A stretch of 58,827 nucleotides of DNA. Origin: an uncultured Porphyromonadaceae bacterium. Its GTDB lineage: Bacteria > Bacteroidota > Bacteroidia > Bacteroidales > Muribaculaceae. The DNA lies in assembly GCA_947175605.1 (NCBI GenBank), contig CAMWNH010000002.1, positions 81,754-140,580 on the forward strand, given 5' to 3'. Below, in pieces: positions 55,048-57,781 of this stretch (the first letter of the stretch is position 1; the number at the start of each line of letters is the position of its first letter). The notes beneath the pieces were generated by a model. The model was not told where the DNA came from, searched no databases, and saw only the letters and a program-made list of their open reading frames with translations. Made by a program: the position numbers and the translations under genes.

Positions 55048-55081
55048 TTTGCGGCCTTTTCGATTTTTTTTCTTACCTTTG
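55048..55081 (+). promoter_or_regulatory. Promoter of gltX
   Basis: TTTG at 55048-55051, 22 nt, TACCTTTG at 55074-55081; leader about 35 nt. Its -33 element lies 8 bp from that of dxr. Confidence 0.7.
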
Positions 55082-55122: not shown

Positions 55123-56655
55123 ATGGAACGCGAAGTTAGAGTTCGTTTTGCCCCCTCCCCCACAGGGCCTCTGCATATCGGCGGCGTACGCACCGCCCTC
55201 TACAACTATCTTTTTGCCCGCAAGCATGGCGGTAAGATGATACTGCGTATCGAGGACACCGATTCCCGCCGTTTTGTGCCCGGTGCCGAAGCATATATCA
55301 ACGAAGCCCTCGCGTGGCTCGGAATCACCATCGACGAAGGCGTGCGCGAAGGAGGCCCCTACGGACCATATAAGCAGAGCGAGCGCCGCGACATATACCG
55401 CCACTACGTCAAGCAGCTTCTCGACAACGGAAAGGCTTATATCGCCTTCGACACCCCCGCCGAGCTCGACGCGCGTCGTGCCGAGGTGCCTAACTTCCAG
55501 TACGACGCTTCCACGCGCATGTCCATGCGCAACTCCCTCACCCTCCCGGCCGATGAAGTGCAGCGCCTCATTGATGCCGGCGAGCAGTACGTCGTGCGCT
55601 TCCTTGTCGAGCCCGGACGCCTCGTCGAAGTCAACGACCTCCTCCGTGGCAAAGTCACCATCAAGAGCGACATTCTCGACGATAAAGTACTCTATAAGAG
55701 CGCCGACGATCTGCCCACCTACCACCTCGCAAATATTGTCGACGACCATCTGATGAAAATCTCGCACGTGATACGAGGCGAAGAATGGCTCCCGTCAGCA
55801 CCCCTCCATGTGCTCCTTTACGAAGCATTCGGATGGGCAGACACCGCTCCCGACTTCGTGCATCTCCCCCTGCTGCTAAAGCCCGACGGAAAAGGCAAGC
55901 TTAGCAAGCGCGACGGCGACCGTCTCGGATTCCCCGTATTCCCCCTCGAATGGCACGACCCCGCTTCCGGCGAAGTGTCGCGTGGCTATCGCGAGAGCGG
56001 CTATCTGCCCGAAGCTGTCGTCAATTTCCTCGCACTCCTTGGCTGGAACCCCGGCGACGACACCGAAGTAATGAGCATGGACGAACTCATTTCCAAATTC
56101 TCCTTCGACCACTGCTCCCGCTCAGGTGCGCGTTTCGCTTTCGACAAAGGCAAGTGGTTCAACCACACATATCTCCAGGCCCTCCCCGACGAGCGCCTCG
56201 CCGAACTCTTCAAACCCGTCATGCGCGCACATGGAGTCGACCCTGACACATTCTCCGACAGCTACATCGCTCGTGCCGTCGGCATGGTCAAGGGCCGCAT
56301 CAACTTTGTCGAAGACCTTTGGGATCAGGCCGCCTTCTTCTTCCGCGCCCCCGAGGAGTATAGCGAGAAAGATGTTCGCAAACGCTGGAGTCCGGAGATG
56401 CCGGAACTGATGCGCACGCTCGCCGCCATCCTCGAACAGCAGTCCGACTTCTCCGCTGCTGCAGTAGAGCCCGTGATTATGGACTGGATCAAATCCAACA
56501 GCCTCCACATGGGCAACGTCATGAACGCTTTCCGCCTCACAGTTGTTGGTGAATGTAAGGGCCCCCATATGTTCGAAGTCTCCGAACTCATGGGCAAGGA
56601 CGAAACCGTGCGCCGCATCCTCGCCGGTGTCGAACGCATAAAGCCCGCTGAATAA
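55123..56655 (+). CDS. gltX: Glutamyl-tRNA synthetase
   Basis: Class I synthetase charging tRNA-Glu. HIGG motif at 18-21 ([19 protein letters not shown]), followed by [14 protein letters not shown] equivalent KLSKR at 259-263; C-terminal anticodon-binding helices. 510 residues, normal. Own promoter at 55048-55081; the degenerate ArgC gene follows 34 nt later with no terminator, so the two may be co-transcribed. Confidence 0.97.
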
Positions 56656-56689
56656 TATTCCATTTTGCAACCCTATAACTCTCCCCGCA

Positions 56690-57634
56690 ATGATTAAAGC
56701 CGGAATACACGGCACAACCGACACCCCCAACGCGCGCGACCTCGTACGCCTGCTTCTCATCCATCCCGATATACAGTTCATGGGATTCGCCAACGAGGAG
56801 CATGCCGGCCGCCCGCTTTGGGAGGACGTCTTCGACATTTACGGTAGCACCGAGCTGCGCTATGCACGCTCCCTCGATCTCTCCTCTCTCGACGTTCTCT
56901 TCTGTCTCGACGCCCATCGTGTACCCGATGAAGCCATAGCACGGCTCAACACGGATCCCGAATTCCGGCTCATTGTCTTCCCCCCCGCTCCCGGCATGCC
57001 CTCCGCCGTCGAAGGCAACGAAAAATTTGTCTACGGCATTCCCGAGCTCAACCGCAAAGCCATGGTGCGCGGTGCACGTGCCGTGCGTCTTGCAACGGCT
57101 CCCGCCATGGCCCTCCTCGATGCCGCATTCCCCATAGCGCGAGCCCTGATGCTCCCTTCATCCTCGGACCCACTTGAAGTCCATGTCGAAGGCCCCGCAT
57201 ACGACCCCGCTCGCGCAGCCCGCGAATCCGAAATATGCCTTCGGGCCGTTCAAAGCTCCTTCGGAGCTCCCGTGCATTTTCAGGGGCCCTCCGCTCCCGC
57301 CCATTCCTTGCGAGGCATGACCGGCGACATGGAAATACCCTGCAATATCGACGACGAAACACTCCGCAACGCATACTCCGAAGCATACTCTGACCATAAC
57401 TTCGCCTTCCTCCTCCCACCTGGCACAGAACTCCCCACAGGAGCCGAGGACGCACCCCTGGCAGGATGCAACAAATGCTTCATCTCCCTCACGCACCCCG
57501 AACACGGACGCATCAGACTGCGTGCTGCCATCGATCCGCGCATGAAAGGAGCAGTAGGAAATGCAATACACTGCATGAATCTCCTCTTCGGACTGCACGA
57601 ACGCACCGGACTTGACCTCAAGCCCGGCGAATGA
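56690..57634 (+). CDS. ArgC-family protein lacking catalytic residues (pseudoenzyme)
   Basis: Homology to N-acetyl-gamma-glutamyl-phosphate reductase is clear along the whole length: MIKAGI start, DLVRLLLIHPDIQ, FVYGIPELNRKA, CNKCFISL and the C-terminal MKGAVGNAIHCMNLLFGL. But the nucleotide loop GxGYTG is replaced by GTTDTPN (residues 8-14), the catalytic block NPGCxxT is replaced by LATAPAM (residues 134-140, with Ala137 in place of the Cys), and the segment carrying the catalytic His is shortened. 314 residues. The frame is intact with normal codon use, so it is maintained rather than decaying. It cannot perform the reductase reaction; function is unknown. Confidence 0.85.
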   Translation: MIKAGIHGTTDTPNARDLVRLLLIHPDIQFMGFANEEHAGRPLWEDVFDIYGSTELRYARSLDLSSLDVLFCLDAHRVPDEAIARLNTDPEFRLIVFPPAPGMPSAVEGNEKFVYGIPELNRKAMVRGARAVRLATAPAMALLDAAFPIARALMLPSSSDPLEVHVEGPAYDPARAARESEICLRAVQSSFGAPVHFQGPSAPAHSLRGMTGDMEIPCNIDDETLRNAYSEAYSDHNFAFLLPPGTELPTGAEDAPLAGCNKCFISLTHPEHGRIRLRAAIDPRMKGAVGNAIHCMNLLFGLHERTGLDLKPGE

Positions 57635-57641
57635 AAAAAAA

Positions 57642-57673
57642 TTTGCTACTCTTGAAAATTGTAGCTACCTTTG
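57642..57673 (+). promoter_or_regulatory. Promoter of tRNA-Leu
   Basis: TTTG at 57642-57645, 20 nt, TACCTTTG at 57666-57673; the tRNA begins 15 nt after the box. Confidence 0.85.
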
Positions 57674-57687
57674 CACATCCAATGGCC

Positions 57688-57771
57688 GCCCGGATGGTGG
57701 AATGGTAGACACGAGGGACTTAAAATCCCTTGACCATTGCGGTCGTGCGGGTTCGAGTCCCGCTCCGGGCA
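57688..57771 (+). tRNA. tRNA-Leu (anticodon UAA)
   Basis: 84 nt. Acceptor stem GCCCGGA (57688-57694) pairs with TCCGGGC (57764-57770), A discriminator at 57771. Anticodon stem AGGGA/TCCCT encloses loop CTTAAAA with anticodon TAA (57721-57723). A long variable arm (TGACCATTGCGGTCG) and GTTCGAGTC T-loop identify a class II tRNA-Leu. CCA is not encoded, so the cca enzyme at 17241 would add it. Confidence 0.96.
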
Positions 57772-57781
57772 CAATATCTCG

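Follow-up and report, generated by a model that had tools for sequence, protein, structure and literature searches.

The question raised by this locus is why a bacterium would keep an ArgC gene whose active site has been lost. The window, the whole stretch of 58,827 nucleotides that was analysed, covers positions 81754-140580 of its contig in a source genome of 2.24 Mb with 98.2% completeness. It contains an open reading frame of 314 amino acids with an ATG start and an intact frame (Table 1), which the initial annotation described as a maintained homologue of N-acetyl-gamma-glutamyl-phosphate reductase (ArgC). Judged from sequence comparison, the protein is a genuine, though weak, homologue of ArgC. 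The NCBIfam ArgC profile TIGR01850 matched the window protein with E=5.6e-20 and 71.8 bits, which did not reach the cut-off of 233.6, and both Pfam semialdehyde-dehydrogenase domains scored under their cut-offs. With the same profile, three other Cys-less members gave 85.3, 90.3 and 211.5 bits, and the catalytic ArgC of locus L289 gave 305.7. A profile built from 22 family sequences, three of them with the Cys, matched 13 distinct solved sequences, which were ArgC or close to it, with a best E of 1.4e-45. The likeness to ArgC, solved for example as 2cvo, 1xyg, 1vkn, 8afu and 2i3g, is one of whole-length homology. The window protein shares the C-terminal KGxxGxA segment, YGxPE and D282 with these enzymes, whereas it lacks the catalytic Cys, the HxH motif and the GAG loop, its NADP loop is altered, and ArgG and an over-cut-off ArgB are absent from the genome.

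In an alignment of 215 genes, Ala137 occupied the catalytic Cys column, and the NADP loop read GTTDTPN in place of the GGAGYT of catalytic relatives, both as initially annotated. The region of the catalytic His, which had been called shortened, was found to have lost the GAG...HFSWRN segment, and ARA stood in place of HQH. In the DaArgC report (PMC10170137), a catalytic Cys is described together with an HRH motif that binds the phosphate and the carbonyl, and a GAG motif flanked by NADPH-binding residues. The mycobacterial ArgC report (PMC8220418) gives a catalytic role to His217 and Tyr211. Given the residues that they have lost, the Cys-less proteins would be devoid of catalytic activity. 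The intact frame noted earlier was matched by open frames in the relatives. The accompanying argument from codon use was weak, because the RSCU correlation with the neighbours was 0.60 for the gene and 0.58 when its DNA was read in the +1 frame; gltX itself gave 0.53. Selection on the window gene is shown by dN/dS and by the open frames of its relatives instead of by codon use.

Table 1. Features at and around the Cys-less argC gene, in coordinates of the window
Feature	Position	Strand	Basis
Element TACCTTTG, matching TAnnTTTG, upstream of gltX	55074..55081	+	motif scan
gltX, glutamyl-tRNA synthetase, directly upstream of the Cys-less argC	55123..56655	+	PF00749, E=8.3e-87
Spacer between gltX and the Cys-less argC, 34 nt	56656..56689	+	terminator-like site not found
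Cys-less ArgC homologue (ArgC1 lineage), 314 aa	56690..57634	+	profile match, alignment, trees
Former NADP loop, residues 8-14, GTTDTPN	56711..56731	+	alignment
Retained loop R122-K123-A-M-V126-R127-G128, including the family's characteristic one-residue insertion	57053..57073	+	R122 in 99/99 Cys-less
Ala137 codon (gct), catalytic Cys position	57098..57100	+	sequence, alignment
Residues 174-176, ARA, replacing the catalytic HQH (HRH) motif; preceding GAG/HFSWRN segment deleted	57209..57217	+	alignment; motif roles from PMC10170137
Retained D235-H236	57392..57397	+	H236: 99/99 Cys-less, 59/60 ArgC1, 0/34 ArgC2, 31/68 order
Retained H294 in the C-terminal KGxxGxAxHxMNLLFGLHERTGL segment	57569..57571	+	H294: 98/99 Cys-less, 60/60 ArgC1, 2/34 ArgC2, 29/68 order
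tRNA-Leu(TAA) downstream of the Cys-less argC, with its own TACCTTTG at 57666	57688..57772	+	

The arginine pathway was sought in the source genome through ArgC, ArgB and ArgG. Profile searches found no ArgC and no ArgB over the cut-off and no match to ArgG, and the controls of each search were positive in 14 of 14 genomes. A second ArgC match (on C34, 42.8 bits) is presumably an aspartate-semialdehyde dehydrogenase.

The same state of the gene recurred across the Muribaculaceae. In a family sample of 149 genomes, the source genome included, 145 had an ArgC-like gene, as did 110 of the 110 family genomes with at least 90% completeness and at most 5% contamination; the four without a match (G045, G048, G093, G127) were 69-89% complete. 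From the family and genus samples, 215 distinct genes of 178 genomes, a part of all matches, were read. Among these 178 genomes 103 Cys-less genes were found, all with open frames, and the Cys position was taken by Pro in 38, Ala in 36, Ser in 13 and other residues in the rest. This recurrence led us to reject an artefact of assembly or annotation. Internal-stop flags in G071, G115, G159, G163, G173 and G017 coincided with the terminal stop when the gene ends were compared.

ArgG was matched at E<=0.001 in 97 of the 149 family genomes and passed the curated cut-off in 20, most of the other matches being full-length and only narrowly short of it. No ArgG match was found in 52 of the 149 genomes, roughly one in three; with two weak cases (G086 and G093) counted as ArgG-less, the number was 54. 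Fifty of these were read, ArgC being without a match in G045, G048 and G093, and G081 not being fetched. A single Cys-less copy only was present in 47 of the 50, the Cys was kept in two (G073 and G142), and one was unreadable; ArgB over the cut-off was found in none of them. Among 93 ArgG-positive genomes read, 61 had one Cys copy, 16 a Cys copy together with a Cys-less one, and eight two Cys copies. The remainder comprised six with only a Cys-less copy read, five of which have two ArgC matches with the second copy not fetched, and two with an unreadable copy. In G079, a single ArgC match that was Cys-less accompanied an ArgG match of 217 bits, below the cut-off. The initial annotation had regarded Cys-bearing orthologues as speaking against its reading. 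Such copies of the ArgC1 lineage, ArgC1 being the family's arginine-operon ArgC, do occur in the family sample, but there they are confined to genomes with ArgG and to two genus g6 genomes that lack it.

In the genus of the source genome, 45 of 49 genomes were read. Thirty had Cys-less copies only, and 13 had a Cys-less copy beside a copy of the type ArgC2, the name used here for the Cys-bearing copy that adjoins argG where a genome has two copies. The gene was thus present without Cys in 43 of the 45 and was not absent from close relatives, an outcome that the earlier reading had also held against itself. The other two had a catalytic ArgC1 (G158) and an ArgC2-type copy only (G153). No ArgC match was found in G155, G180 and G182, and G179 had a partial match only. 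ArgC1 was not strictly universal: besides the genomes without a match, G018 and G153 carried no copy other than a Cys-bearing one of another type.

The rest of the order differed from the family. The order sample held 247 genomes, of which 73 matched; without four own-family genomes and one weak match (G374), ArgC was present in 68 of 243 genomes outside the family, and 67 of these 68 kept the Cys. The exception was G208 of family f22, in which one of nine genomes had a Cys-less ArgC. This ArgC carried the one-residue insertion of the Muribaculaceae and fell among the Cys-less rows in the tree (fork support 88), with argR upstream (127.8 bits, cut-off 130.45) and a gene named from its sequence as proC-like downstream. 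This copy was probably transferred from the Muribaculaceae.

Pairwise dN/dS values (NG86, non-saturated pairs of at least 62% identity, which are not independent of each other) had medians of 0.115 for Cys-less copies (81 pairs), 0.11 for catalytic ArgC1 (623 pairs) and 0.166 for ArgC2 (282 pairs). Values for Cys-less pairs ranged from 0.014 to 0.30, with close pairs as low as 0.014 and 0.026, and so lay far below 1. By pairwise alignment, 80 of 137 Cys-less pairs were counted, the other 57 being saturated. When only pairs with dS<1.2 were used, the medians were 0.175 (17 pairs), 0.127 (64 pairs) and 0.243 (51 pairs), respectively. The constraint on the Cys-less copies may therefore be a little weaker than that on ArgC1, and it is not weaker than that on ArgC2. 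For the window gene and its closest relative (L256), dN/dS was 0.25/1.55 over 134 codons. A dead active site and purifying selection, the two marks of a pseudoenzyme, were found together in these genes.

Descent was followed in two trees. In the first (IQ-TREE, C20, 103 rows), the Muribaculaceae ArgC1 including the Cys-less rows formed one clade (98), and ArgC2 formed a separate clade outside it (99). Of 35 Cys-less rows, 34 formed one group (88) that included the L349 row, and the Cys loss of G114 was separate with a catalytic sister (99); G114 additionally holds an ArgC2-type copy. In the second tree (FastTree, 270 rows), which is more prone to long-branch error, ArgC2 (33 rows, 95) lay among the ArgC of other families, and the Cys-less rows were spread over several places, so that at least four Cys changes were needed. 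The two trees disagree on whether the Cys-less copies are a single group, and the terminal branches of these copies are long. The window gene itself has a long row (1.0 and 1.4), which leaves its precise position uncertain. Both trees and the synteny gave vertical descent from the family's ArgC. The idea of a maintained pseudoenzyme is strongly supported by the number of Cys-less genes, by purifying selection like that on ArgC1 and by this descent. In the simplest history, the arginine operon would have been lost with ArgC1 kept, and an operon with ArgC2 would then have been gained in some lineages, where ArgC1 would not have been lost on the gain. ArgC2 would thus be the later acquisition and is presumably functional.

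The variation within the Cys-less proteins was unevenly distributed. Across 98 Cys-less sequences (effective number 75), the NADP loop, positions 134, 136-138 and 140, the TGS strand (168-170), the HQH motif (174-176) and positions 199 and 201 were scattered, whereas the same positions were fixed in both catalytic sets. Like R122 and H236, E119 was present in 99 of 99 Cys-less sequences; D235 and V126 were each present in 98 and K123 in 96, and H294 and E304 were each missing from one sequence, through a gap. The one-residue insertion was a mark of the family, present in 54 of 60 ArgC1 and in 99 of 99 Cys-less sequences, and residue 128 was absent from 34 of 34 ArgC2 and 67 of 68 order sequences. 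The idea that H236 and H294 are exclusive to the Cys-less proteins was rejected, and the two residues do not prove a second function, because catalytic ArgC from other families in the order also has them (31/68 and 29/68). A relocated nucleophile was likewise rejected. C263 was present in 80 of 99 sequences and is not invariant, and Ser at the Cys position was limited to the 13 genes counted above.

We consider it probable that the Muribaculaceae contain a conserved set of dead ArgC proteins, descended vertically from ArgC1, which keep a catalysis-independent second function after the loss of the pathway. Most likely, ArgC1 had this function before the pathway was lost. With the pathway gone, the Cys, the HxH motif, the GAG loop and the NADP loop would have decayed while the protein body was kept, although this order of events is conjectural. 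The Cys-less protein would have a non-catalytic binding or regulatory role through a retained surface or pocket. This is proposed to include E119, R122-K123, V126-R127-G128, D235-H236, K262, H294 and E304, which may form one site. A bolder form of this explanation, which we offer tentatively and with some doubt, is that the family's ArgC is a two-job protein. Its near-universal second job would reside in a surface or pocket around R122-K123, D235-H236 and H294 together with the insertion, would be selected without the pathway, would be isolated in the Cys-less proteins and could not be taken over by an ArgC from outside.

The strongest rival is a new enzyme activity, in which E119, R122, K123, D235, H236, K262, H294 and E304 would make up a new catalytic site for another substrate. 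The fixation of charged and His residues over 99 Cys-less sequences is in line with this. However, the same residues are present in the catalytic ArgC1, and several of them in other ArgC, so they may serve the fold or the oligomer, and no new conserved Cys has appeared, C263 included. We regard such a neofunctionalised enzyme as unlikely.

A further rival draws on the gene neighbourhood. The window gene had been placed 34 nt behind gltX without a terminator; the start of the reading frame was confirmed, and no plus-strand terminator-like site was found between 55000 and 57800, both sites found there being on the minus strand. A scan of the window for TAnnTTTG, which we take to be the Bacteroidota -7 element, gave 26 matches against 13 expected. 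After the match at 55074, the next on the plus strand lay at 57666, and none separately preceded the Cys-less argC, whose transcription may start at the promoter of gltX. The consensus scans for promoters and terminators gave nothing of weight.

Named relatives (L loci), mostly Muribaculaceae, Porphyromonadaceae or Bacteroidales MAGs with a few of other groups, were compared at this locus. The order gltX-waaA-argR-GNAT-argG-argC was found in L289 and L326 (waaA below the NCBIfam cut-offs), and gltX was present in seven of 17 named loci with argG directly before argC. The Cys-less argC followed gltX-waaA in 12 loci (for example, L257), gltX in L268 and argR in other relatives. Among 70 Cys-less copies of the family sample, argR was directly upstream in 30 and gltX lay within the fetched stretch in 18. 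Since gltX also occurs near argG-argC, its adjacency to the window gene is probably left over from the former arg locus. A role tied to gltX by conserved adjacency was rejected as a general rule, argR being the direct upstream neighbour in those 30 copies, and the suggested link through gltX between glutamate charging and arginine synthesis was not supported. Gaps between argR and the Cys-less argC were between -8 and 103 nt in 27 of 29 cases, those between waaA and the Cys-less argC were -4 in 5 of 12, and those between gltX and argC were -4 in 7 of 7 Cys-bearing named loci.

Two arrangements in these loci were observed in passing. In L272, L279, L291, L313, L321, L325 and L327, a gltX-linked ArgC with the Cys (NPGCLA and similar) overlapped gltX by 4 nt, and its motif was as in g6. 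Together with the ArgG-less, Cys-keeping g6 genomes G073 and G142, this group is a possible intermediate. In L259, L261, L266, L281, L283 and others, argR and the Cys-less argC were followed by a conserved block of ssb, a SpeA-like arginine decarboxylase, truA and ligA, with gene names given from sequence and with ssb and truA not called in L261.

The rival built on this neighbourhood is a ligand sensor, which would bind glutamate or acyl-glutamate and connect GltX or ArgR with the status of arginine or glutamate. Besides the frequency of argR and gltX near the Cys-less copies, it has in its favour that the junctions in the named loci are often short or overlap by 4 nt. However, the substrate and NADP pocket residues are the ones lost, and the initially suggested acyl-glutamate-binding role finds no support, as the residues expected to hold the ligand and NADP are the decayed ones. 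Moreover, argR and gltX also stand in the argG-argC loci of prototrophs and may be leftovers. The source genome gave no ArgR match, which makes an ArgR-dependent role there doubtful, though the same search was positive in only 9 of 14 controls; it gave matches in 100 of the 149 family genomes, none over the cut-off. None of the 18 gltX-linked Cys-less copies came from a genome with an ArgR match. We think a sensor somewhat less likely still than a new enzyme, and ArgR and GltX are partner candidates by virtue of gene neighbourhood only. A functionless, decaying relic of the arginine operon would fit the eroded arg locus, the scattered active-site motifs and the long branches, but is very improbable given the Cys-less dN/dS near that of catalytic ArgC1, the dN/dS of the L256 pair and the persistence beside ArgC2; decay to a pseudogene was rejected by dN/dS and the open frames.

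A dead ArgC kept for a second function has partial parallels. Pseudoenzymes retained after the loss of catalysis are a known kind, and the Cys-less ArgC resembles them in its enzyme fold, dead active site and purifying selection. It differs in that the dead ArgC persists even beside a Cys-bearing ArgC2. Yeast Arg5,6 is an ArgC-domain moonlighting protein with a proposed second, non-metabolic role and with catalysis kept. The ArgC domain and a proposed second role are shared with it, whereas catalysis is lost here and DNA binding is not indicated. No description of a Cys-less ArgC family was found in the literature searched, a partial body of sources with most subscription journals outside its scope.

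In the Cys-less proteins, nature offers a dissection of a core metabolic enzyme: nearly all ArgG-less genomes read keep the ArgC body without the Cys, under selection similar to that acting on the functional enzyme, and lineages with a Cys-bearing ArgC2 retain the dead ArgC1 as well. A hidden function of a textbook enzyme thereby becomes testable in cultured isolates. An ArgC-like gene is no predictor of arginine synthesis in these gut bacteria. A side observation concerns ArgB in genus g17, where the ArgG-less genomes G017, G040, G060, G095, G122, G135 and G146 carry a full-length, divergent ArgB-like protein of 118.8-143.6 bits (cut-off 151.3), which may be a second arginine enzyme that outlasted the pathway.
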